From a virus, in IMG/VR virus record IMGVR_UViG_3300048834_000264, positions 1 through 33,624 of that record: a stretch of DNA of 33,624 nucleotides; one strand, 5' to 3'. The notes beneath the pieces are model-generated. The model was not told where the DNA came from and searched no databases. It saw nothing but the letters and a program-made list of their open reading frames with translations. Shown one piece after another: positions 4,346 to 31,491 of the stretch (positions are counted from its first letter, which is position 1; each line of letters starts with the position of its first letter). The translations under genes were made by a program, and so were the position numbers.

Positions 4346-4786
4346 GTGGCTACCGTTCAAGTATCAGGCCTGCGCGAGTTGGGCCTGCAGATGCGCGCCC
4401 TGGGCGCCGACATGGCCGGCAAGGTGGCCCGCCAGGCCACCGCTGCAGGTGCAGGCGTGGTGCGCAAGGCCGCCCGCCAGAACGCGCCCAAGGACACCGG
4501 CAACCTGCAGGCCGCCATCGTCATGAAGCGCGAGCGCCAGACCCGCCTGACCGAGGAATACGTGGTGGCGGTGCGCAAGGGCAAATCCAGGGACGTGAAG
4601 GCCGCCAAGCGCGGCGAAGGCCGCCTGGGCAAGGATGCGTTCTACGCCCGGTTCATGGAGTTCGGCACCGTCAAGATGCCCGCGCAGCCCTTCCTGCGCC
4701 CCGCGCTGGAAGAAAACGTCCAGGCCGCCACCGACGCCATCGCCAAGCGCCTGAAACAGCGCATCGACAAGGTGAAGAACAAATGA
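4346..4786 (+). CDS. HK97 gp10-like tail-joining protein
   Basis: 146 residues starting at GTG 4346, only 4 bases after the previous stop. The family signature is clear: RKAARQNAPKDTGNLQAAI near residues 40-58, then FYARFMEFGTVKMPAQPFLRPA near 95-115. Such proteins act at the head-tail interface or tail terminator. An internal ATG at 4390 would cut the first strand, so GTG is preferred. The stop overlaps the next start (ATGA). Confidence 0.88.
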   Translation: MATVQVSGLRELGLQMRALGADMAGKVARQATAAGAGVVRKAARQNAPKDTGNLQAAIVMKRERQTRLTEEYVVAVRKGKSRDVKAAKRGEGRLGKDAFYARFMEFGTVKMPAQPFLRPALEENVQAATDAIAKRLKQRIDKVKNK

Positions 4787-5151
4787 TCCAGGCCGAAGCC
4801 CTGCACGCCGCCCTGGCCCCGCTGGTGGCCGGCCGGGTGTACCCCGTCATGTTCCCGCAGGAACCGCTGCCAACCTGGCCCGCCATCCGCTACACGCCCG
4901 TGGGCGGCCAGGTGTGGCCCGACGCGTGCGGAAGCGGCGATGGCGCCGAAGACGACGTGCGCGTGCAGATCGACAGCATCGCCACCACCTTCGACGCCGT
5001 CCGCCAGCTGCAGCAGCAAGTGCGTGCCGCCATGCTGGCCTTCACCCCGCCGGCCGTGGCCGACGGGCCACCCCTCTTCGAGTTCGATGCCGAAACGCGC
5101 ACCTTACGCGCCATCCAGGACTTCACCATCTACCCCAGCAGCGCCGCCTGA
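4783..5151 (+). CDS. Tail completion / terminator protein, DUF3168
   Basis: 122 residues of the DUF3168 family, which caps the tail tube near the connector. Features are RVYPVMFPQEPLPTWPAIRY early, a central DVRVQIDSIATTFDAVRQL helix-strand unit, and a C-terminal TRTLRAIQDFTIY strand. It starts within the stop of the gp10-like gene (ATGA overlap), pointing to coupled translation. Confidence 0.87.
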   Translation: MIQAEALHAALAPLVAGRVYPVMFPQEPLPTWPAIRYTPVGGQVWPDACGSGDGAEDDVRVQIDSIATTFDAVRQLQQQVRAAMLAFTPPAVADGPPLFEFDAETRTLRAIQDFTIYPSSAA

Positions 5152-5173
5152 TCGGCGCCAGACGATTACCCAC

Positions 5174-5198
5174 AACCCGCCCGCCTCGGCGGGTTTTT
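5174..5198 (+). terminator. Intrinsic terminator before the tail tube gene
   Basis: An 8-bp stem (5174-5181 with 5188-5195), 6-base loop and TTTTT tail. The next gene starts 23 bases later with its own AGGAG site. The same stem bases and the same downstream TTTTTCRTTTCCA string recur before the HNH gene near 33201. Confidence 0.78.
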
Positions 5199-5220
5199 CA
5201 TTTCCACAGGAGCCAGCACC

Positions 5221-5856
5221 ATGAGCCAAGGTCAACGCATCAAGTTTTACGGCACCACCTTTGCCGTCGTCACCGCCTGGGGCGCCGCCAACGCCCTCAC
5301 CAGCATCAGCAAGGCCAATCCCGCGGTGGTCACCGACACCGGCCACGCCATCCCGGACGGCTCGGTGGTCAAGATCAGCGGCGCCGTCGGCATGGAAGAG
5401 ATCAACGACCAGCTGGCCGTGGTCGAGGTGGTGGACGCCAACAGCTACAGCCTCATCGGCATCGACAGCACCAACTACGGCACCTACGTCAGCGGCGGCA
5501 GCGTGCAGGTGGCCACCTTCAGCAACAGCTGCGAGGTGACCGGCTACACCGGCGACAGCGGCACAACCACCGAGACCGAGAGCGAAACCAACTGCGGCAA
5601 GGCCATCGACTTCGGCAGCCCGGACCCCGGCAGCGTGTCCATCCAGTACAACCACGCTCCCACCGACTTCCAGGAAGCGCTGGAAACCGCCCGCCGCGCC
5701 GTGGCCACCACCGCCGTCAAGACCACGCTGCCCAACAGCAAGGGCGTGATGATCGACATTGGCGTCATCACCCAGGTGGGCCGCGCCGCCGCTGCCGGCG
5801 GCATGTGGACGGGCAGCGCCACGCTGCGCCGCATCACCGACCGTGTGGACCTGTGA
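5221..5856 (+). CDS. Major tail tube protein
   Basis: 211 residues. Residues about 1-105 contain a small domain often annotated in phages as E1 FCCH-like (IPDGSVVKISGAVGMEEINDQ, then YSLIGIDSTNYGTYVSGG). The tail-tube domain follows, with the SETNCGKAIDFGSPDPG and DFQEALETARRA segments. It polymerises around the tape measure to form the tail. AGGAG lies 8 bases before the start. Its place ahead of the chaperones and tape measure supports the call. Confidence 0.88.
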   Translation: MSQGQRIKFYGTTFAVVTAWGAANALTSISKANPAVVTDTGHAIPDGSVVKISGAVGMEEINDQLAVVEVVDANSYSLIGIDSTNYGTYVSGGSVQVATFSNSCEVTGYTGDSGTTTETESETNCGKAIDFGSPDPGSVSIQYNHAPTDFQEALETARRAVATTAVKTTLPNSKGVMIDIGVITQVGRAAAAGGMWTGSATLRRITDRVDL

Positions 5857-19858: not shown

Positions 19859-20263
19859 GTGCTCGGCACCATCACGTCCGCGCTCTTTGGCGGCAGCGCC
19901 GTGCGCACCGTCGTCACGCTGCTGGCCGGCATCGCCATCGGCGGCTGGACTGGCTGGCAGGCGCAGGGCTGGCGGCAGGGCGATCTGCGCGCAAAGGCCA
20001 TCGAGCAGCAGGCGCGCGACCAGCTGCGCCAGATCGAGCACCGCGACCGCGCCAGCGCGGCCTACCAACAGGAGCAAGCCGATGCAGACCGTGAACACAT
20101 CAAGATCGTGGAGCGCGTGCGCGTCATCAATGCGGCGCCTGCTGCTGCTGGCCAGTGCCTGGATGCTGACGGCCTGCAGCAGCTGGGCGCCGCCATCGAC
20201 AACGGCGCTCCCCCCGCCGCCGGACCTGGCCCAGCCCTGCCCAGCGCTGGCCCGGCCAGCTGA
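19859..20263 (+). CDS. Rz: Inner-membrane spanin, Rz-like
   Basis: 134 residues from GTG 19859, directly behind the previous stop. One N-terminal membrane helix (about 14-33, TVVTLLAGIAIGGWTGWQAQ) is followed by a charged coiled coil in the periplasm (AIEQQARDQLRQIEHRDRAS). With the nested Rz1 lipoprotein it would bridge inner and outer membranes in the last step of lysis. The nested reading frame strongly supports the call. Confidence 0.82.
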   Translation: MLGTITSALFGGSAVRTVVTLLAGIAIGGWTGWQAQGWRQGDLRAKAIEQQARDQLRQIEHRDRASAAYQQEQADADREHIKIVERVRVINAAPAAAGQCLDADGLQQLGAAIDNGAPPAAGPGPALPSAGPAS

Positions 20264-20369
20264 CGGCACCCGCGCCGCCATGCTGACCTGGAGCACCGAA
20301 ACCGCCCGCGCCTACAACCGGTGCGCCGCGCGGCACCGGGCGCTGGTGGACGCATGGCCCGGCCAGTGA
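20130..20369 (+). CDS. Rz1: Outer-membrane spanin lipoprotein, Rz1-like
   Basis: 79 residues in the +1 frame inside Rz. A signal peptide MRRLLLLASAWMLTAC ends in lipobox LTAC with Cys16 as the lipidated residue. A Pro-rich stretch (STTALPPPPDLAQPC) follows, then a short helix. It starts inside Rz and ends 106 bases beyond it, an overlapped arrangement. Together the pair forms a complete spanin complex. Confidence 0.82.
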   Translation: MRRLLLLASAWMLTACSSWAPPSTTALPPPPDLAQPCPALARPADGTRAAMLTWSTETARAYNRCAARHRALVDAWPGQ

Positions 20370-20521
20370 CCGCGCCCAGCCGGCGCCAGGACAAAGCCGA
20401 GCGCCAGCGCGATCAGCGCCGTGTCGCCCGCGAGCGGCAGGCCCGCGAGGATCTGCGCCGACGCGCCGAGGTGCCCGAGCTGCTGCCGGTGCGCGATGAA
20501 GAGGGGCGTTACAGGCCCTGA
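20354..20521 (+). CDS. Small very basic protein, unknown function
   Basis: 55 residues, extremely Arg-rich and helical (RRQDKAERQRDQRRVARERQ), no Cys, no membrane segment. The start overlaps the Rz1 end by 16 bases in a different frame. It is the last plus-strand frame before the convergent minus-strand region. It could be a real late gene or an accidental frame; I do not recognise a family. Confidence 0.45.
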   Translation: MARPVTAPSRRQDKAERQRDQRRVARERQAREDLRRRAEVPELLPVRDEEGRYRP

Positions 20522-20716
20522 ACGAACACCGTTGCGCACGAAGCGCTTGATCCAGTGCCAGTACGCCTCCAGCGTTCGGCGGCTGTAGTGGCGCACGGCA
20601 ATGGCCTCGGCCACCAGCTGCTGCAGCCTTTTGGGTTGGGAGGCCTGGTGGTCGCATAACGCCGGTGCGGCGTCGTGCGTCATGGTGGCTGGTGCTTGTG
20701 GATCAAGGACTTGCAT
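20520..20716 (-). pseudogene. 5' remnant of an IntI-like tyrosine recombinase
   Basis: From ATG 20716, with GGAGG six bases upstream, the frame reads about 61 residues resembling the N-terminal SAM-like domain of integron integrases: PKRLQQLVAEAIAVRHYS at residues 28-45, RT at 47-48, AY at 51-52 and WHWIKRFVR at 53-61. Homology stops near 20534; the frame runs on only opposite the Rz1 region. The core domain and catalytic Arg-His-Arg-Tyr residues are absent. It lies where temperate phages often keep int, but its motif is of the integron type. It is probably not an active enzyme. Confidence 0.7.
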
Positions 20717-20771
20717 GTGGCCCTCCGGTGTTATCCGACGTGGGGTGTTCCCGAATTTGTGTTGAACAACA

Positions 20772-20981
20772 TCACTCGCTGATTCCGCGCAGGGTTTCCA
20801 GCGCCTGAACCATCGCAACCACGTCGCCGCTCATGACAGCGCGGTCGGCGGCTTGCAAGTCCTGTTCAATGAACATGGCTCCAATCGCTCCAGCGGGGCC
20901 TATTTCCTTGTAGTAGCCCAGCACCTTGCGAACCCGGGCCATTTCCTTCGGCAGTGCGTCTGCCAGTGTTTCAGTCGTCAT
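20772..20981 (-). CDS. Small cassette protein, unknown function
   Basis: 69 residues, helical: ADALPKEMARVRKVLGYYKE, then GAIGAMFIEQDLQAADRAVM and VAMVQALETLRGISE. I recognise a recurrent small phage/bacterial family without known role. It starts inside the end of the upstream zinc-ribbon gene (11-base overlap) and stops just before a half attC box (GTTCAAC in the gene direction). It is the second gene of the last cassette. Confidence 0.7.
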   Translation of the reverse strand: MTTETLADALPKEMARVRKVLGYYKEIGPAGAIGAMFIEQDLQAADRAVMSGDVVAMVQALETLRGISE

Positions 20982-21123
20982 CGTCTTCTTCCTCGGTTGA
21001 GTCTTCAATGTCGAACACCTCGCCACAGGCGGCGCAGCGTTCAAGGTTCTCGAAAGGCTGCACGCCGTCCCAGCCGCTGTCGTACTGGTAGTGCACCTTG
21101 CAGCCACACTTTGGGCAGGCCAT
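20971..21123 (-). CDS. Mini zinc-ribbon protein
   Basis: 50 residues with two Cys pairs (Cys3/Cys6 and Cys30/Cys33) in MACPKCGCK and ERCAACGEVF, and an acidic tail ending in four Asp. GGAG lies 9 bases before the ATG. The leader from the attC R' box to the ATG is nearly identical to that of the 21489-21707 gene. Probably a small zinc-binding adaptor; target unknown. Confidence 0.75.
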   Translation of the reverse strand: MACPKCGCKVHYQYDSGWDGVQPFENLERCAACGEVFDIEDSTEEEDDDD

Positions 21124-21143: not shown

Positions 21144-21203
21144 GTTCAACTCTGCGCGCCAGTCGGACCGCCTTCGGCGGCCCGCTGCGCTTCGGTGTTC
21201 GGC
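21144..21203 (-). repeat. attC-like site 12
   Basis: In the gene direction: R'' GCCGAAC (21203-21197), near-palindrome with a 9-bp stem (21164-21172 with 21176-21184, one mismatch), and R' GTTGAAC (21150-21144), which fits GTTRRRY. Nearly identical core to sites 6 and 10. Confidence 0.75.
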
Positions 21204-21431: not shown

Positions 21432-21484
21432 GCCGAACTGGTTAATCGACCGCACGCGGTGCGGCGGTCATCGTGGTGTTGAAC
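21432..21484 (-). repeat. attC-like site 11
   Basis: R'' GTTCAAC (21484-21478) fits RYYYAAC. R' GTTCGGC (21438-21432) is off consensus at one base. The centre has an imperfect GC-rich hairpin (GACCG at 21448 with CGGTC at 21465). Weaker than its neighbours but correctly placed between two small genes. Confidence 0.6.
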
Positions 21485-21488
21485 AACA

Positions 21489-21707
21489 TCAATACTCGAC
21501 GCGGGCAAGCTCGAACTCATGGCCGCAGTATTCGCAGGTCAACTCGTGGCCTTCCAGCTTGTCCCATGCATTCGTGAAGATGTGCCTAGATATGTAGTTC
21601 TCGCTGTCGTGCTCCGGGCCTGAAATGTCGTTGGCCTCGTTGCACTTCGGGCAGTCAACGTACAGCGACCAATCAAGCTGGGCCACTGGCTGGGTAAGTT
21701 GTGTCAT
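21489..21707 (-). CDS. Small zinc-ribbon protein
   Basis: 72 residues. Two CxxC pairs, Cys19/Cys22 (VDCPKCNEAND) and Cys58/Cys61 (LTCEYCGHEFE), flank an acidic linker. This is a typical small phage zinc ribbon. The leader has ACACCGGAGAAAGAC before the ATG, shared with the 20971-21123 gene. The stop lies 5 bases before site 11. Confidence 0.75.
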   Translation of the reverse strand: MTQLTQPVAQLDWSLYVDCPKCNEANDISGPEHDSENYISRHIFTNAWDKLEGHELTCEYCGHEFELARVEY

Positions 21708-21727: not shown

Positions 21728-21787
21728 GTTCAACTCTGCGCGCCAGTCGGACCGCCTACGGCGGTCCGCTGCGCTTCTGTGTTCGAT
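21728..21787 (-). repeat. attC-like site 10
   Basis: R'' ATCGAAC (21787-21781), a perfect 9-bp central stem (21748-21756 with 21760-21768, loop TAC), and R' GTTGAAC (21734-21728). The core is the same as in site 6 over more than 35 bases. Confidence 0.78.
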
Positions 21788-22080
21788 GACTCGCGCCCGA
21801 TCCGTGCCCGCGCCTCCCAGGCGTGGCCGTTATCGGTCCAGCTTGCAGCCATCGCGCCGCAGCAAAGCGAGCACCACCGGTAGCTCATAAGCGCGCCGTC
21901 AAACACTGCCGCCAGAAGCCTAACGCGCTCTCCGGGTGTGATTTCTTGGCGGCACATGCCGCAGGTGCCACCCCTGCGCGCCGTACCGATCTTGTCTTTC
22001 AGAACCCGGTCGCCCGGCGATCCGAAGTCACCTTCAAACGGGTTGACCTTCAAGCATTCAGCTTCGTCAAAAATCATCAT
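21730..22080 (-). CDS. Cys-rich cassette protein
   Basis: 116 residues. A zinc-finger-like set: Cys40/Cys43 (GGTCGMCRQEI) and Cys70 with Cys73 or Cys74 (YRWCSLCCGA). The last 18 residues (SSNTEAQRTAVGGPTGAQ) are encoded by the attC site itself, as seen in many cassette proteins. The start ATG sits just downstream of the R' box of site 9, with GGAG overlapping that box. Function unknown. Confidence 0.75.
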   Translation of the reverse strand: MMIFDEAECLKVNPFEGDFGSPGDRVLKDKIGTARRGGTCGMCRQEITPGERVRLLAAVFDGALMSYRWCSLCCGAMAASWTDNGHAWEARARIGRESSNTEAQRTAVGGPTGAQS

Positions 22081-22132
22081 CGAACTCTCCTATCGAGCGG
22101 ACCCGTTGGGCCGCTCATTGCCAGTGTTAGGC
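22079..22132 (-). repeat. attC-like site 9
   Basis: R'' GCCTAAC (22132-22126) matches the consensus perfectly. R' GTTCGAT (22085-22079) is one base off. A 6-bp central stem (22095-22100 with 22111-22116) is present. Confidence 0.72.
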
Positions 22133-22320: not shown

Positions 22321-22380
22321 GCCTAACCCGGCGCTCGTTCGGATGGGCCTGACGGCCCGCCGCAAAGCTCGGCGTTAGCG
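22321..22380 (-). repeat. attC-like site 8
   Basis: R'' CGCTAAC (22380-22374), central stem GGGCC/GGCCC (22345-22349 with 22354-22358), and R' GTTAGGC (22327-22321), a perfect consensus. One of the clearest attC boxes in the array. Confidence 0.78.
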
Positions 22381-22635: not shown

Positions 22636-22695
22636 CGCTAACAGGGCGTTCAAGCCGAACCCGCTTCGCGGGTCGGCTTAACTTCGGTGTTGACC
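22636..22695 (-). repeat. attC-like site 7 (aadA-like architecture)
   Basis: A 13-base arm (22652-22664) pairs with 22668-22679 around loop TTC, leaving one unpaired base (22658), the type of extrahelical base that guides attC recombination. Outer boxes in the gene direction are GGTCAAC (22695-22689) and GTTAGCG (22642-22636). From memory, the string GTTCAAGCCGA and the CGCTTCGCG centre resemble attC sites of aadA cassettes. Confidence 0.82.
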
Positions 22696-22980: not shown

Positions 22981-23039
22981 GGTCAACTAGGCGCGCCAGT
23001 CGGACCGCCTACGGCGGTCCGCTGCGCTCTGTGTTGGGC
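22981..23039 (-). repeat. attC-like site 6
   Basis: R'' GCCCAAC (23039-23033) matches the consensus. A perfect 9-bp stem (23001-23009 with 23013-23021, loop TAC) follows. R' GTTGACC (22987-22981) is one base off. Shares its core with sites 10 and 12 and its R'' flank with site 3. Confidence 0.78.
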
Positions 23040-23326: not shown

Positions 23327-23368
23327 GCCCAACTCTTAAATCGAACCGACGCCGGGGCGAGGTTCATC
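23327..23368 (-). repeat. attC-like site 5, short or degenerate
   Basis: R' GTTGGGC (23333-23327) is perfect. The R'' candidate GATGAAC (23368-23362) is poor, and the site is only about 42 bases with a 5-bp stem (23343-23347 with 23361-23365). It overlaps the end of the 23336-23617 gene. Probably a partly eroded or very short attC. Confidence 0.5.
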
Positions 23369-23617
23369 GGTGGGGTTGAGCTTCACGTCTGCCAGTTCGT
23401 AGTCAAACGACTCCAGCACAGTGCCCTGAGCGATGGCTCGGCTCATGCCGAGCACCTGGCCCCAGCGAACACCCTCCACCTCGCAAGGCCACTCGCCATC
23501 GTGTTTTGCTTCGTCACGGTAGTACTCAAGGTCTGCAAGTGCTGCGGCCTTCGCCTCTTCGGCTGTGTCGTGAAACAGAATGCCGTTGTCGTCGGTGAAG
23601 CTGAAAAATGGTTTCAT
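23336..23617 (-). CDS. Small phage-type cassette protein
   Basis: 93 residues: MKPFFSFTDDNGILFHDTAE, then AAALADLEYYRDEAKHDGEW and a strand-rich second half with EGVRWGQVLGMSRAIAQGTV. This is a known style of small early phage protein, without a named role. GGAG 8 bases before the ATG. The leader begins GTTGGGCTGATGCCC, shared with the next cassette downstream. Confidence 0.72.
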   Translation of the reverse strand: MKPFFSFTDDNGILFHDTAEEAKAAALADLEYYRDEAKHDGEWPCEVEGVRWGQVLGMSRAIAQGTVLESFDYELADVKLNPTDEPRPGVGSI

Positions 23618-23636: not shown

Positions 23637-23721
23637 GCCCAACTCTGTGCTCCAGCGAACTGCCAGAGCGTGGTTTCAATCGGTGCGCCCAGCGGGCAGT
23701 CGCTGAGCGTCGGTGTTCTGT
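23637..23721 (-). repeat. attC-like site 4
   Basis: The longest site, 85 bases. R' GTTGGGC (23643-23637) is perfect; R'' ACAGAAC (23721-23715) is weak. Inner arms CTCCAGCGAACTGCC (23650-23664) and GGCAGTCGCTGAG (23695-23707) pair with bulges. It encodes the C-terminal tail of the methyltransferase. Confidence 0.68.
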
Positions 23722-24620
23722 GGCATCAGCAGGCGCCACGCTTCAGCCGCACATCGCGGCACCTGTCCGTTTCCAATGGCTTTAAGTCGGTCCACCCGAG
23801 CGGCCACCCCATCAGCCACTCGACCCACGTTGGGTTCAGTGCTCCACCAACGGCGTTCGGCAATTGCTCCCCCTTCGCTCCACCGCCTCTTTCTGCGTAG
23901 CTCTTGGCGTTCGGGTGCTTGAAATCCCGGGCAGCCGGCGTCGGCCATTTCGATCGAGCGGAAACCGCCTCGATCAGCGTCCCGCCCTCTCTGCTCTTGC
24001 GCGGTGTCACGCGCCCGCCCTTCGTGCCCAGACTGCTGGTCAGTGTCGGCCAGAGCCTGACCGCCGTCGCCAGTCCGTCGCCGCTCTTGGCACTCGCGCC
24101 TCTGCGGTTGTTGTTCCCGCACACTGTTGGCGTTGGCCACAAGCCAGAATCTGTCGCGCTGGTGAGGCGCCCCAACGTCGGCAGCTCCCAGCACTGTCCA
24201 GCGGCAGTCATACCCGAGCGTGGCCAGGTCACTGAGGACTCGTCCGAGTCCCCGAGTAAGCAGGGCTGGGCTGTTTTCCACGAAGACGAAGCGGGGTCGA
24301 ACTTCGCCCACGATGCGCGCCATGTGCGCCCACATTCCCGATCGAGCGCCGTCGATGCCGGCGCCCTTTCCGGCGACGCTGATGTCCTGGCACGGGAAGC
24401 CGCCAGAAACCACATCAACAAGGCCTCGCCATGGTCGTCCGTCAAAGGTGCGAACGTCATCCCAAACCGGGAAGGCCGGGAGAAGGCCGTCATTCTGTCG
24501 GGCGGCAAGTACGCTTGCGGGGTAGGGTTCCCACTCGACGGCGCAAACGGTGCGCCATCCGAGCAGGTGGCCGCCGAGAATTCCTCCACCAGCGCCCGCG
24601 AAAAGAGCCAGCTCATTCAT
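23676..24620 (-). CDS. Orphan DNA cytosine-5 methyltransferase
   Basis: 314 residues of the C5-methyltransferase family: motif I FAGAGGG (7-13), motif IV GGFPCQDIS with catalytic Cys77, motif VI VENS (114-117), motif VIII QRDRFWLVA (154-162), and the C-terminal VDRLKAIGNGQVP (motif X). It transfers a methyl group from S-adenosylmethionine to cytosine. No restriction enzyme gene is nearby, so protection of phage DNA from host restriction is a reasonable inference. The last 13 residues (QNTDAQRLPAGRTD region) come from attC site 4. It is the only large gene of the array. Confidence 0.88.
   Translation of the reverse strand: MNELALFAGAGGGILGGHLLGWRTVCAVEWEPYPASVLAARQNDGLLPAFPVWDDVRTFDGRPWRGLVDVVSGGFPCQDISVAGKGAGIDGARSGMWAHMARIVGEVRPRFVFVENSPALLTRGLGRVLSDLATLGYDCRWTVLGAADVGAPHQRDRFWLVANANSVREQQPQRRECQERRRTGDGGQALADTDQQSGHEGRARDTAQEQRGRDADRGGFRSIEMADAGCPGFQAPERQELRRKRRWSEGGAIAERRWWSTEPNVGRVADGVAARVDRLKAIGNGQVPRCAAEAWRLLMPQNTDAQRLPAGRTD
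23726..24616 (-). CDS. Second open frame overprinted on the methyltransferase
   Basis: A 296-codon frame on the same strand, shifted by one, starting 4 bases after the methyltransferase start (ATGAATGA). Its predicted protein has MSWLFSRALVEEFSAATCSD, FDPASSSWKTAQPCLLGDS, LWPTPTVCGNNNRRGASAKS and NPTWVEWLMGWPLGWTDLKP. I recognise these strings from a phage hypothetical-protein family. In such high-GC DNA a long second frame alone means little, so this may only mirror methyltransferase conservation. Translation is unproven. Confidence 0.35.
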   Translation of the reverse strand: MSWLFSRALVEEFSAATCSDGAPFAPSSGNPTPQAYLPPDRMTAFSRPSRFGMTFAPLTDDHGEALLMWFLAASRARTSASPERAPASTALDRECGRTWRASWAKFDPASSSWKTAQPCLLGDSDESSVTWPRSGMTAAGQCWELPTLGRLTSATDSGLWPTPTVCGNNNRRGASAKSGDGLATAVRLWPTLTSSLGTKGGRVTPRKSREGGTLIEAVSARSKWPTPAARDFKHPNAKSYAERGGGAKGEQLPNAVGGALNPTWVEWLMGWPLGWTDLKPLETDRCRDVRLKRGAC

Positions 24621-24951
24621 CGTTTCTTTCTTGGTTAGGTGCCACAGAACTCAACGCGCCAGTCGGACGCTCCGCGCCGCTGCGCTCTGTGTTGGGCCAC
24701 AGCATGGCGCCGCGCAGGGCTTCAAGCACCGCCTCTCGGTGCGTCTTGCCTGAGCTGTCTCGCCACCAACCGTCGTAGTCCCGCATGCCGCAGGGCGCCG
24801 TAACGATGATGTACCAGTCGTCTTTTTTACTGTCGCGTGCAATACCGATTGCGCGACCCTTGTAGGTGTAGTGTCCTTCTGTGGAGCACTCCCACGACGT
24901 GCGCACGCGGGGTGCCCCAACTCTGCAATCCATCGAATTCGCTTCGCTCAT
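24613..24951 (-). CDS. Small cassette protein
   Basis: 112 residues. A folded-looking centre TSWECSTEGHYTYKGRAIGI, then KKDDWYIIVTAPCGMRDYDG and WWRDSSGKTHREAVLEALRG. The last 28 residues (from LWPNTERSGAERPTG on) read straight through attC site 3 and end over the methyltransferase start. ATG 24951 overlaps the upstream stop (ATGA). Function unknown. Confidence 0.72.
   Translation of the reverse strand: MSEANSMDCRVGAPRVRTSWECSTEGHYTYKGRAIGIARDSKKDDWYIIVTAPCGMRDYDGWWRDSSGKTHREAVLEALRGAMLWPNTERSGAERPTGALSSVAPNQERNDE
24649..24697 (-). repeat. attC-like site 3
   Basis: R'' GCCCAAC (24697-24691) and R' GTTGAGT (24655-24649) both match the consensus. Arms GCGCCAGTCGGACGC and CGCCGCTGCGC are imperfectly palindromic. 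It shares the GCGCTCTGTGTTGGGC flank (plus strand) with site 6. Confidence 0.76.
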
Positions 24952-24972
24952 TGCTGATCTCCGGTGTTATGC
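24915..24972 (-). repeat. attC-like site 2
   Basis: R'' GCATAAC (24972-24966), R' GTTGGGG (24921-24915), both near consensus. Inner arms pair as GCAAT/ATTGC and CGAA/TTCG. The site contains the end of one gene and the start of the next. Confidence 0.62.
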
Positions 24973-25286: not shown

Positions 25287-25340
25287 GCATAACTCTGCGC
25301 CCGACCGGACCCGCTGGCCCGGTCAACTTCGGTGTTCACG
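25287..25340 (-). repeat. attC-like site 1, upstream border of the array
   Basis: R' GTTATGC (25293-25287) with arms GACCGG/CCGGTC (25303-25308 with 25319-25324). The R'' side CGTGAAC (25340-25334) is poor and contains the stop of the DUF4224 gene. This marks the junction between the phage leftward operon and the first cassette. Confidence 0.65.
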
Positions 25341-25611
25341 CGGCCTTCCGGCCAAAAAGCACCACCAGCCCTGCGCGGTTACCCGTGGGTGCCGGCTGGG
25401 GTTGATGGATTGCCTGAGCATCGTTGGCGGCAGGGCGCTGGCCAGCCAGCACTTTCTCGGCATGGGCGCGCATCACCAGAGGCCGGCCGTTGGGCTTGCG
25501 TGTGACGTGCAGGCCCAGGTCTTCCAGGTAGCGGGCCTTGGCGGCGTTCTGCCGAAGGCCAGCGCACATGGAGTCAATCTCTTCGTCGGTCAGGTCCGGT
25601 CGGGTGTTCAT
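25336..25611 (-). CDS. DUF4224 family protein
   Basis: 91 residues. TDEEIDSMCAGLRQNAAKAR, then YLEDLGLHVTRKPNGRPLVM, the DUF4224 signature. In temperate phages this family usually lies beside the integrase gene; here its neighbour is the cassette array. The start overlaps the upstream stop by 4 bases. It may assist integration or excision, an inference from context. Confidence 0.82.
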   Translation of the reverse strand: MNTRPDLTDEEIDSMCAGLRQNAAKARYLEDLGLHVTRKPNGRPLVMRAHAEKVLAGQRPAANDAQAIHQPQPAPTGNRAGLVVLFGRKAA

Positions 25612-26162
25612 GCGGCCTTCCTTTCCGTGCGCAGCGGCTTACCCAGCATCGCGTCCAGATCCACCGTGGCGTGGCCGTTCTTGATGCGTGCGCCGGTCAG
25701 CCGGATGGCTTCTTCGTAGACGCTGCGTGCCACGCTGGCCCGCTGCTGCTCGTGCAGGCGGATCACGTCGCGCAGGTGCTCGATGGCCTGACCGCTCAGG
25801 CCCATGCGGCCAGTGCGCTGGTAGCGTGCGGCGGTCTCGATCAGGTCCTGCTCGGCCAGGTGGCACGCGGGCATCACCTCATCGCGCATCACGCCCAGCG
25901 TGCCGGCCATGGTCTGCGCGATGTTGTTCAGGTTGACCAGGTCGGACCACTCCGTCAGCCGCGCATGGCCGCGGGTGAATGCGTCCAGCGCGGTGAGTTC
26001 GCGCATCATCAACTGGTCGCGCGCCTGCTCTGATGTGATGGCCGCGCCCGCCATGGCGTGCTCGATGGTGTCCAGGTCGGTGCGCCACACCTTGCGCGAC
26101 ACGGGTGGTTTGCTGTGCCCGCGCTGGGCGCGCTTTTGTGCTCGTCGCTGTTCGCGGTTCAT
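25608..26162 (-). CDS. Phage protein of unknown function
   Basis: 184 residues. A very basic N-terminus (NREQRRAQKRAQRGHSKPPV) is followed by a long helical body (QARDQLMMRELTALDAFTRG, HLRDVIRLHEQQRASVARSV). The KRAQ-type basic start suggests nucleic acid contact. It overlaps both neighbours by 4 bases, so it belongs to the leftward operon. No named family recognised. Confidence 0.75.
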   Translation of the reverse strand: MNREQRRAQKRAQRGHSKPPVSRKVWRTDLDTIEHAMAGAAITSEQARDQLMMRELTALDAFTRGHARLTEWSDLVNLNNIAQTMAGTLGVMRDEVMPACHLAEQDLIETAARYQRTGRMGLSGQAIEHLRDVIRLHEQQRASVARSVYEEAIRLTGARIKNGHATVDLDAMLGKPLRTERKAA

Positions 26163-26764
26163 GCCTGCATCCCCCTGCTCGGCAGCGCATAAGCCGCCAT
26201 CGCACCGGGTCGGCCGTCGAAGGGCCGCAGCTCGGTGCCGGTGTAGATGCCGGCCATCACGTCCACCTGGCGCGGCTTGGCCACGTGCTCGGCCGCCTTC
26301 AGGTGTGCCGCAGGGCGGCTGTAGCCGGCGTCCTTGCTTTGCAGCGTGCCGCGCTGCACCAGCAGGATCAGCGCCGGCCGCAGCATGGTCTGTGGCAGGC
26401 CGGTGGCGGCGCCCAGGTGGCCAATGCGCATGGGCGCGTTTTTGCGCTTGTCGATGGTCTCGCAGATCAGCGCCTCCACCTCCACGGCCGACAGGGCCGG
26501 CTTGGGTGCCGGTGTTGCGGGCTTGGGTTCCTGCGCCGGTTCTTCTGGGGTGTTCGGTTTTCGGCCCGTGATGCGGTAGTGCTTGACGCGGCTGTCCGTG
26601 GCGTCGGCAGTGGTCTGCACCACCCAGGTCTTGCGCAGCTCCTTGATCTGGCCCAGCGCTGCGCCCTTGCTGATGCGCATGCGCTTGCTGATGGCGGTTG
26701 CGTCCAGGCCGGGCGCTGGCTCGGCGCTCAGCAGGGCGGCGATTTTTTTGCGCATGGTGGTCAT
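26159..26764 (-). CDS. Winged-helix DNA-binding protein
   Basis: 201 residues. The N-terminus (LDATAISKRMRISKGAALGQ, residues about 18-38) is a helix-turn-helix. A Pro-rich linker (TPEEPAQEPKPATPAPKP) and a second helical domain (APMRIGHLGAATGLPQTMLR) with helix-turn-helix character follow. The start at 26764 overlaps the previous stop and has AAGGGG upstream. Probably a transcription regulator of the early region. Confidence 0.72.
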   Translation of the reverse strand: MTTMRKKIAALLSAEPAPGLDATAISKRMRISKGAALGQIKELRKTWVVQTTADATDSRVKHYRITGRKPNTPEEPAQEPKPATPAPKPALSAVEVEALICETIDKRKNAPMRIGHLGAATGLPQTMLRPALILLVQRGTLQSKDAGYSRPAAHLKAAEHVAKPRQVDVMAGIYTGTELRPFDGRPGAMAAYALPSRGMQA

Positions 26765-27120
26765 GCCGTGGCCCCTTCCATTTCCACCCGCTGGGCCGGG
26801 TTGGCCATATGCAGCCACTCGGCCACGGTCATCACCGGGAAGTTCAGGCCCTTGGCCAGGCGCACTTCGGCCAGCGCGCCGCGGCTGGCGCCGAAGTTCG
26901 GCAGCGTGGCCACGGCGTTGCTGCGCGCCATCATCAGCGTGATGTCGCGGCGCATGTGGTCGATCCACGGGGTGTCGTCCTGCGGCAGGCTGTCCTCGGC
27001 CGGGTTGGTGACGATGTAGCCGGCGGCGCGCAGCTGTGCGGCTGCCGCGTGGAATGCCGGGTGGTTGAACTCGGGCAGGCCACTCATGGGGCCAGCCAGG
27101 TACAGGCGGTGCTGGCTCAC
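26761..27120 (-). CDS. DUF4406 protein, nucleoside deoxyribosyltransferase-like
   Basis: 119 residues. LYLAGPMSGLPEFNHPAF at the N-terminus, then GYIVTNPAEDSL, WIDHMRRDITLMMARSNAVA and LPNFGASRGALAEVRLAKGL. This is the DUF4406 family, with the fold of nucleoside 2-deoxyribosyltransferases. It may act on nucleotides, but the substrate is unknown. The ends overlap both neighbours by 4 bases. Confidence 0.85.
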   Translation of the reverse strand: MSQHRLYLAGPMSGLPEFNHPAFHAAAAQLRAAGYIVTNPAEDSLPQDDTPWIDHMRRDITLMMARSNAVATLPNFGASRGALAEVRLAKGLNFPVMTVAEWLHMANPAQRVEMEGATA

Positions 27121-27350
27121 TTCAGCACCTCCAGCGGAACCTCTGGGCCAAACTTCACCGGCTGGCCTTGTGCAAACAGGTAGGCCGCGCTGCTGAGCAT
27201 GGTGCGCGCCACCATGGCCGTGTCGGTGTTGCCCAGCAGAGAGTCGGCGCCGTGGGCCATGCCGCCGCTGCAGGCGCTGGTGCGCACCGTGGGAGGTTCG
27301 CCGGCCAGGCCGGGCACGATGTCAATGGTGATCAAGGGTGCAGTGCTCAT
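27117..27350 (-). CDS. Small early protein, unknown
   Basis: 77 residues: STAPLITIDIVPGLAGEPPT, then GADSLLGNTDTAMVARTMLS and AYLFAQGQPVKFGPEVPLEV. GAGG lies about 7 bases before the ATG. It overlaps the DUF4406 start. Not recognised. Confidence 0.68.
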   Translation of the reverse strand: MSTAPLITIDIVPGLAGEPPTVRTSACSGGMAHGADSLLGNTDTAMVARTMLSSAAYLFAQGQPVKFGPEVPLEVLK

Positions 27351-27360
27351 GGTGTGAACC

Positions 27361-27669
27361 TCAACGGATGACCAGGCCGACGATGCGGTCGGCGTTGGGG
27401 ATGACGGCGGCCAGGAAGACCGCCACACCGGCCGCGTAGGCCAGCCAGAAGCGGCGCGTGGCGCTGGCGTCGCGCTCGTGCGGCTGCACGTCGTTGGCCG
27501 GGTGGCCTTCGCAGCAGAAGTCGGTGCAGGTGGCCAGGCCATCGCACATGCCTGGCCGGCAGCGGCGCTGCTCAATCGGGCCGTGAACGATGCGCAGCGG
27601 TGCCTGCAGCTGGCTGGCGTCAACGCGGTGCAGCAGCAGTGGTTCGTGGGTGAGGCTTTGGTGGTTCAT
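27361..27669 (-). CDS. Cys-rich small membrane protein
   Basis: 102 residues. The centre has several Cys (RCRPGMCDGLATCTDFCCEG) and the C-terminus one membrane helix (about 74-92, WLAYAAGVAVFLAAVIPNA). The type recurs in proteobacterial phages. The start overlaps the upstream stop (ATGA). Role unknown; the membrane anchor puts the Cys-rich part on one face of the inner membrane. Confidence 0.72.
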   Translation of the reverse strand: MNHQSLTHEPLLLHRVDASQLQAPLRIVHGPIEQRRCRPGMCDGLATCTDFCCEGHPANDVQPHERDASATRRFWLAYAAGVAVFLAAVIPNADRIVGLVIR

Positions 27670-28049
27670 TTCTCCACCTCCGCAACCACCACAGCAGGCC
27701 GGCACACCAGATCACCGTCGTGCGTCCACAGCACCAGCGCACCGGGTCCAAGCTCGGCCTGGCAGAGGGTTTCGGCGGCGCGCTGCAGTCGGGTGTCGGC
27801 CGCGTCCAGCTCGGAGTTGATGCGTTCGATGCGGCTGGCGTCGTCGGCGTCGCGCTCGGACAGGTGGATCAGTGTGAAGAACGCAGCCACGGCCAGCACG
27901 GCGGTGACGGTGGGGGAAACAGCGCTGCGCCAGCCGCTGCGGCGGGCGTGATCGGCCACGAAGTCGTCCCAGTCTTGATCGGGCAGGGGGCGCTTGTCGG
28001 TTCTCTCGATTGGCGATGGCTCATCGGCGGGTCTGATAGCACGGTTCAT
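27666..28049 (-). CDS. Membrane protein with coiled coil
   Basis: 127 residues. An acidic N-terminus with DQDWDDFVADHARRSGWRSA, one membrane helix (about 44-62, VSPTVTAVLAVAAFFTLIHL), then a heptad-rich segment (DASRIERINSELDAADTRLQ). The stop overlaps the next start. Function unknown. Confidence 0.7.
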   Translation of the reverse strand: MNRAIRPADEPSPIERTDKRPLPDQDWDDFVADHARRSGWRSAVSPTVTAVLAVAAFFTLIHLSERDADDASRIERINSELDAADTRLQRAAETLCQAELGPGALVLWTHDGDLVCRPAVVVAEVEK

Positions 28050-28180
28050 ACGGCACCGCCCTTCTGTGCCGCCCAGGCCGCACGCATGGCGCGCAGGTGC
28101 TGACCTGCCGAACGGTTGATGGTGATGGTGATGCGCTGCATGGCCATCGCGCACAGGTGGTCGAGTTCGGCGCGGGTCAT
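28046..28180 (-). CDS. 44-residue early protein
   Basis: A short helical protein (TRAELDHLCAMAMQRITITI, then AGQHLRAMRAAWAAQKGGAV). It overlaps the gene before and after by ATGA, which supports real translation. Not recognised. Confidence 0.65.
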   Translation of the reverse strand: MTRAELDHLCAMAMQRITITINRSAGQHLRAMRAAWAAQKGGAV

Positions 28181-28428
28181 GCGGAACCGCCTTCAAGCGC
28201 CACGATGTCACCCGAAATGGTCAGGCCGATGCGTGCGCCCGGGTTTTCCTCGGTGATGTCGTGGATGCGCTGCCACATGTTGGAGCAGTCTTCGGCGCAC
28301 TGCACATCGCGCTGCAGGCGCTCGATTTCTTCGGCCTGCACCGCGCACAGTGCGCGCAGGTGGTCAAGTTCCCAGCGCTCCAGCCGGCGCTGGATGCTGA
28401 TCGTTTCCTTGGTGTGTTGCTGTGCCAT
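28177..28428 (-). CDS. First gene of the leftward operon, unknown
   Basis: 83 residues: MAQQHTKETISIQRRLERWE, a long helix (LRALCAVQAEEIERLQRDVQ), then IGLTISGDIVALEGG at the end. I start it at 28428 because GGAGGG stands 5 bases upstream; ATG 28440 would add MEGQ and bury that site in the gene. PL lies about 25 bases upstream of this start. Function unknown. Confidence 0.7.
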   Translation of the reverse strand: MAQQHTKETISIQRRLERWELDHLRALCAVQAEEIERLQRDVQCAEDCSNMWQRIHDITEENPGARIGLTISGDIVALEGGSA

Positions 28429-30690: not shown

Positions 30691-31491
30691 ATGAGCATCA
30701 CGATCATGACGCAGGCATGGCTTGCGGATATTCCGTCAGGCCGAAAGCTGGTACTGCTGAGTCTGGCTGACAACGCCAACGACCGTGGCGAGTGCTACCC
30801 ATCTGTGGATGCTGTGGCGGCGCGCTGTGGCCTGTCCGTTCGGGCCGTTCAGGGGCACATTGCAGACCTCGAAAAAACCGGGATGGTCAGCCGCGAAAAC
30901 CGCCACGGCCGGTCCAATCTTTTCACGCTGCACCACCGCAGATTCTGCACCCCGCAGAATCTGCACCCCGCAGAATCTGCACCCACCACCCCCGCAGAAT
31001 CTGCACCCCCGCAGAATCTGCACCCCGCAGAATCTGCACCCCACCCCGCAGAATCTGCACCCCACCCCGCAGAATCTGCACCCCCCACCCCCGCAGAATC
31101 TGCACCCATAACCGTCATAGAACCATCACTTAACCGTCAAAGTAATCATCATGGCGCGAAGCGTGCGCAGGTGGTTGGTGGGGTGTTCGGGTTGGGCGAT
31201 GTTGACCAGCAGGTACTGGCCGACTGGCTGGCCCACCGCAAGCGGCGCAAGGCCGATGTGACGGCCACGGTGGTGGCAGACCTGCGAAAGCAGGCGGCGC
31301 TGGCAGGGCTGTCGGTGGAGGACGCGATCCGCACCGCGATCCGCCGCGGCTGGACGGGGTTCGAGGCGGCCTGGGTGGGTTCGTCAGACCGTCCTGCCGC
31401 CGATGTGGCGCCGGCCCGCCAAGGGCGGCATTCCGGCTTTGCCGGCAAGGATTACCGCAAGGGGGTGGCCGATGACGGCTCGTTCTCTTGA
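30691..31491 (+). CDS. Replication initiator, phage O-like, with internal iterons
   Basis: 266 residues. An N-terminal HTH_36-type domain (residues about 1-85: GRKLVLLSLADNANDRGECY, then YPSVDAVAARCGLSVRAVQG), a repeat-coded linker at about 86-138 (PAESAP and QNLHP units), then a C-terminal part (VDQQVLADWLAHRKRRKADV) that may bind the helicase loader. The nine iterons encode the linker. Its end overlaps the DnaC-like gene, the O-P arrangement of lambda. The start at 30691 has only a weak GAAGA upstream. Confidence 0.82.
   Translation: MSITIMTQAWLADIPSGRKLVLLSLADNANDRGECYPSVDAVAARCGLSVRAVQGHIADLEKTGMVSRENRHGRSNLFTLHHRRFCTPQNLHPAESAPTTPAESAPPQNLHPAESAPHPAESAPHPAESAPPTPAESAPITVIEPSLNRQSNHHGAKRAQVVGGVFGLGDVDQQVLADWLAHRKRRKADVTATVVADLRKQAALAGLSVEDAIRTAIRRGWTGFEAAWVGSSDRPAADVAPARQGRHSGFAGKDYRKGVADDGSFS
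30938..31103. repeat. Nine iterons, probable replication origin
   Basis: The 11-base near-palindrome GCAGAATCTGC starts at 30954, 30970, 30994, 31011, 31027, 31048, 31069 and 31093. One further copy at 30938 is its reverse complement, GCAGATTCTGC. Start distances are 16, 16, 24, 17, 16, 21, 21 and 24 bases. Spacers are C/A tracts on the plus strand. Placement within the initiator gene is the lambda pattern. Confidence 0.85.

Follow-up and report, generated by a model that had tools for sequence, protein, structure and literature searches.

Integrons are generally treated as bacterial devices, in which IntI joins a folded attC strand to attI and the cassettes face away from intI; in the usual view they face that way because the promoter sits there. 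Integrons of phages were described by Qi et al. 2023 (PMC9892861), a source that covers Vibrio and Shewanella integrons in phages, a class 1 integron on P1 and CALINs, and notes divergent attC directions in one phage. In appearance, the phage cases reported so far are host-type pieces or scattered attC clusters. A different layout is that of the Treponema reverse integron (Coleman 2004, cited in PMC3607928). In this system transcription of intI proceeds toward attI, and the cassette ORF has its stop codon within R'' (PMC3607928, PMC7691350).

The window analyzed here comprises all 33,624 bases of an IMG/VR virus record. It is a tailed phage with plus-strand genes for portal, head protease, major head protein, tail tape measure and J protein; it also encodes a DnaC-like helicase loader and has an early operon directed leftward. 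Features of the region studied are listed in Table 1. Repeats of CCGCAGAATCTGCACCC are arrayed at positions 30924-31131, inside the early/replication region, and may represent iterons or the internal repeats of a coding gene. Searches with the DNA of the region gave no match among cultured phages, and searches with the DNA of the integrase fragment gave none among plasmids. A 390-aa gene adjoining the region had no relative among the viral contigs searched.

Table 1. Positions of the integrase remnant, attI, attC sites, cassette ORFs and flanking operons in the window.
Feature	Position	Strand	Basis or remark
Late operon end	19859..20521	+	Rz1-like lysis gene and small ORF; convergent with intI
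Phage-lineage intI 5' remnant	20536..20716	-	~60 codons; profile and DNA matches
attI	20717..20767		Leader CACAAATTCGGGAACACC..GTCGGATAACACCGGAGG, preceding the ATG of intI; conserved in relatives
Crossover core GTTGAAC	20761-20767	+	End of attI
Cassette ORF, 69 aa	20772..20981	-	Homologues in early operons of phages with no detected attC
Cassette ORF, 50 aa, zinc-ribbon-like	20971..21123	-	Shares cassette with 69-aa ORF
attC B	21144..21203	+	Scored
attC C	21432..21484	+	Scored
Cassette ORF, 72 aa, weakly zinc-ribbon-like	21489..21707	-	ORF call
attC D	21728..21787	+	Scored
attC E	22079..22132	+	Scored
attC F	22321..22380	+	Scored
attC G	22636..22695	+	Nearest to textbook attC
Cassette ORF, 101 aa	22650..22955	-	ORF call
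attC H	22981..23039	+	Scored
attC I	23327..23381	+	Scored
Cassette ORF, 93 aa	23336..23617	-	ORF call
attC J	23637..23721	+	Scored
Cassette ORF, C5 cytosine DNA methyltransferase	23676..24620	-	PF00145, 9e-34
Cassette ORF, 112 aa	24613..24951	-	ORF call
attC K	24644..24697	+	Scored
attC L	24915..24972	+	Scored
Cassette ORF, 104 aa	24948..25262	-	ORF call
attC M	25287..25340	+	Outermost; abuts phage early gene 25336-25611
Phage early operon	25336..28428	-	Direction as cassettes; terminates at array

The initial annotation had pointed to a minus-strand frame with a good ribosome site and an IntI-type N-terminus that breaks off near position 20534. These statements were borne out. The sequence GGAGG precedes the ATG at 20716; PF13495 (Phage_int_SAM_4) matches residues 33-62 above its gathering score (9.2e-7); the integron integrase profile TIGR02249 matches at E=2.8e-5, a score far below the full-length cut-off; and the best match in PDB is VchIntI (2a3v, 0.003). 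The profile search thus placed the fragment within the tyrosine recombinases, as an IntI, and gave no placement outside them. At the DNA level it is 80-82% identical to intact intI genes from 20789 down to 20536, where the similarity ends abruptly, 2 nt from the predicted break; with one intact gene the identity is 82% over 253 nt. The nearest IntI protein is phage-borne (77%). A canonical phage integrase is not indicated, as the fragment is nearer to IntI and the canonical recombinase of the relatives is a separate gene after intI. By its profile and DNA matches the fragment is the front end of an integron integrase from a phage-specific integron lineage. The C-terminal ~285 codons, with the catalytic domain and all catalytic residues, have been lost from the window, and its own integrase is dead.

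Finding the intact gene at this locus in related phages had been proposed as a check. A search of viral contigs with the fragment identified it in two IMG/VR phages, L002 and L003, with full-length intI genes encoding 348 and 346 aa. These proteins score 434-440 bits against TIGR02249 (cut-off 265), and that of L003 matches VchIntI 2a3v across nearly its whole length (E=5e-78). Both phages carry the same leader as the window, in the equivalent position. With the L002 phage the window also has in common the head module, in the same gene order, and the leader-adjoining cassette with its 50-aa and 69-aa ORFs, located between an attC and the leader. Full-length IntI was absent from L158-L160 and L211, which by their capsids are the window's nearest relatives, so that no very close relative with an intact intI is known. 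Among full-length IntIs from bacterial assemblies the closest one, 87% identical to that of L002, was found on a 3-kb contig of a Hydrogenophaga MAG (L045), making Comamonadaceae possible hosts.

The suggestion that the fragment occupies the place where phages keep int was correct, since the relatives keep int there. In all ten relatives checked, a canonical recombinase (tyrosine in nine, serine in one) is the first gene downstream of intI to exceed 800 bp. The L002 and L003 contigs have a large serine recombinase at the start and intI at the end, and the two genes would adjoin if the genomes are circular. No Phage_integrase match was found in the window, a record that may be incomplete; the profile search for int covered tyrosine recombinases. 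Because a recombinase follows intI in all these relatives and none was found in the window, one deletion at 20536 may have removed int along with intI. The window contig may also lack int only because it is incomplete.

The homology to intI ends at 20536 and the frame of the last late gene at 20521. This junction could be explained by an assembly break or a chimera, the phage itself having an intact intI, and it is known from a single contig, no second contig of the same phage having been found. However, intI is joined here to the end of a convergent late operon, and several relatives likewise have convergent genes beyond intI and int. We regard an assembly artefact as unlikely and favor a deletion in the window, which would have taken the last ~83% of intI.

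The leader upstream of the ATG is conserved among the window, L002, L003, L045, L004 and L006, with the consensus RYYYAA^C-NNN-AATTCGG..-GTCGGATAAC-ATG. The variable part stops at AA^C, which on the opposite strand is G^TT, the integron crossover. As in integrons, the leader adjoins intI and the cassette junction falls at this point; judged by these features it is the attI site. Perfect LexA boxes were found neither in the leaders of the IntI clade described below nor in the conventional set, the two groups being alike in this respect.

Twelve attC sites are present between 20761 and 25340. Six of them (B, D, F, H and J included) were located by a scanner, and six were identified from complementary ends and then scored. 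In 10 cases out of 12 the R'' complements exactly the opposite end of its own cassette, and in the remaining two it agrees in 6/7 positions, giving 82 of 84 positions; none of 100,000 shuffles equalled this, a result somewhat favored by the placing of some sites by the same rule. The sites fold into imperfect hairpins with bulges in the 5' arm, as expected of an integron array. Against a profile trained on 91 bacterial attC oriented solely by intI, of which eight score higher when reversed, all twelve score better in the polarity that is conventional with respect to intI. A locus without any integron, in which early genes are split by repeated hairpins near an unrelated tyrosine recombinase, would agree with the near-identity of the hairpins at sites B, D and H. 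It is next to impossible given that the end complementarity varies from cassette to cassette, that relatives encode full-length IntI and that a cassette has been inserted exactly at attI. On sequence grounds, the window array is a genuine integron array.

The cassette ORFs were all called on the minus strand, antisense to the attC and running toward intI. The strand of the methyltransferase gene was settled by Pfam and PHROG homology. In the 69-aa ORF the window and L002 differ by 24 substitutions, 18 of them at third codon positions of the minus-strand frame. In the relatives the start codon lies at a median of 30 nt past the end of the attC R'', and many stop codons are located at a distance of 2 nt from the next R' or 5 nt inside it. 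The usual orientation of ORFs along the attC was tested for and not found, and the locus was therefore classed as an integron variant and not as an ordinary integron. Homologues of the 69-aa protein reach 92% identity, and those of 79% are encoded in early operons of phages with no detected attC. The same protein recurs in L145-L157, often in compact early operons with no attC found nearby. The cassettes of the window and of several relatives carry genes for C5, Dam-type and N6/N4 DNA methyltransferases, DHH phosphoesterase, PAPS reductase and helicases; the methyltransferases suggest anti-restriction functions.

The layout had been described initially as opposite to the usual divergent one. 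This was right insofar as intI and the cassette ORFs are codirectional; by attI/attC polarity, however, the layout is usual and it is the ORFs that are inverted. Codirectional intI and cassette ORFs are shared with the Treponema reverse integron, where ordinary cassettes accompany an intI that has been turned. In the phage clade, in contrast, the flipped elements are the ORFs, and intI has its ordinary orientation: its transcription leads away from attI, and the end of the ORF next to R'' is the start rather than the stop. Together with the conventional attC polarity this refutes a reverse integron of the Treponema type, which we consider extremely improbable.

The inversion was then examined in a wider set. 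Relatives of this IntI are encoded by 43 viral contigs, out of 127 loci from bacterial assemblies 80 were retained as a comparison, and a maximum-likelihood tree of 98 IntI proteins was built; the viral relatives are database contigs, mostly metagenomic. Twenty-four of 25 inverted loci fall into one 39-row clade (support 93/98) which has no conventional members, L032 being the sole inverted locus outside it. Inside the clade 78 of 78 attC are conventional and the ORFs are 77 inverted versus 2, whereas outside it 9 ORFs are inverted versus 41 conventional (Fisher 2e-22, an optimistic value as the ORFs of near-identical phages are not independent). A single origin of the inverted layout may be read from the tree, in which it is weakly resolved (44/89). 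As a strand control, 75 ORFs of the inverted strand matched 54 PHROG families, against no family for 40 antisense ORFs from these arrays. The ORFs of L004 and L010 were put on the opposite strand by a gene caller with per-locus training; a model trained on intI genes reversed these calls, and whole-contig calling agreed for L004.

Some clade members from bacterial assemblies look like prophages: that of Aromatoleum (A. toluolicum strain T) has a RecE-like exonuclease among its upstream genes, that of Thiobacillus denitrificans RG a phage integrase adjoining intI, and L052 shares 10.5 kb with a viral contig at full identity. The two named bacteria are culturable carriers. Compared with sedentary chromosomal integrons (TIGR02249; VchIntIA 2a3v), the phage clade is alike in full-length IntI, attI, conventional attC arrays, end complementarity and insertion at attI, but its ORFs are inverted and its intI is codirectional with them, at the end of the early operon beside int. 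With the phage integrons of Qi et al. 2023 it shares intI, attI and attC in phage genomes; an inverted-ORF lineage is not described in the available part of that paper (PMC9892861). The IntI proteins of cultured-phage records are 29-54% identical to IntI of the lineage studied here, and in the Shewanella phage integron IntI is host-like (95% to S. oneidensis) and the cassettes are conventional and divergent. Few attC were found in these public-record phage integrons, used as controls, with a scanner that under-calls unusual structural types.

Other viral IntIs were also observed. L030, L031, L033-L035 and L039 form a separate subclade, in which L030:10001-12836 has two plus-strand attC downstream of intI and resembles a Treponema-type reverse integron in a virus. 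Virus Rctr41k (L237, KX853513), from an enrichment culture, encodes an IntI-like protein (4680-5678, 43%) codirectionally with all neighboring genes; no attC was found there by the same scanner, which under-calls other structural types.

Of the two origins offered initially, capture and decay of a mobile integron or loss of a phage integrase of IntI type, the second agrees with the data: intact homologues with the same attI leader stand at the same place in related phages, within a phage/prophage IntI clade. The first was rejected for a mobile integron on ORF orientation and on IntI identity, the plasmid class 1/3 IntI being 51-55% identical to the intact relative. Capture of a piece of a bacterial integron, chromosomal or mobile, with subsequent decay has precedents in the phage integrons of Vibrio, Shewanella M16-3 and P1 listed in PMC9892861, and would fit the broken intI of the window. 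It is nevertheless very unlikely, since the nearest IntIs are phage-borne members of that clade, the cassette ORFs are inverted, unlike those of bacterial arrays, a cargo gene (69 aa) also occurs in phage early operons, and the place beside int is kept in relatives. With its dead intI the window is in effect a CALIN, the term for attC arrays that lack an integrase; unlike a CALIN, it retains attI and an intI stub, and its relatives are complete.

Comparison of closely related phages revealed exchange of cassettes. L025 and L028 are 99.9-100% identical in flanks of 7.1 kb and 1.3 kb, yet their arrays are unrelated (2.75 kb versus 0.36 kb), and the breaks fall on the AAC of attI and that of the outer site. 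L007 and L008 are 92-96% identical nearby and differ by a cassette inserted exactly at the attI junction; the cassette ends in GACGCCGAAC and attI reads TTAAATTC. In L012 and L037, ~94-97% identical around the array, the cassettes are fully different, the arrays having been replaced. Phages that are near-identical apart from their cassettes, the breakpoints coinciding with attI and attC cores, imply that the integrons of these relatives are active in nature.

Overall, we are highly confident that the fragment is the 5' remnant of a phage-lineage IntI whose intact relatives run an integron with inverted cassettes, and that it arose by deletion in the window. This explanation builds on sequence evidence for intI identity, attI, the attC array, its polarity, ORF inversion, the clade and natural exchange. 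By analogy with the chemistry of known IntI, the enzyme of the relatives would recombine folded attC with the attI in the leader of its own gene, in an integron that closes the early operon and immediately precedes the ordinary int of the phage. The attC of the cassettes have conventional polarity and the ORFs lie inverted to them. Transcription of the early region would proceed through the early genes and the cassettes into intI in one direction; only inverted cassettes would be expressed in sense, so that selection would keep them. Given the ORF direction, a Pc on the attI side would be useless for these cassettes. In the window, the deletion would have removed most of intI and perhaps int, leaving attI, the 12 attC and the cassettes. 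Such a phage could no longer move cassettes alone, and its 12 attC could be used by IntI supplied in trans.

Neither a phage IntI clade nor systematically inverted cassettes were found in the literature covered, which excluded most subscription papers and all preprints. Phage integrons as such are known (Qi 2023, PMC9892861); a phage clade with systematic cassette inversion is in no paper searched. That a phage clade of integrons carries its cassettes inverted suggests that the promoter, and not the chemistry of recombination, sets ORF orientation, and such integrons give phages a site-specific means to swap small early genes. The origin of inverted cassettes and their crossing into bacterial arrays become testable questions. 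It is probable that this lineage, with a cassette pool of its own, serves temperate phages as a dedicated exchange of accessory early genes (DNA methyltransferases, zinc-ribbon proteins, helicases), placed back-to-front for expression from the early operon, and that bacterial integrons with expression from Pc can make little use of inverted cassettes, a barrier that would keep the two pools apart.
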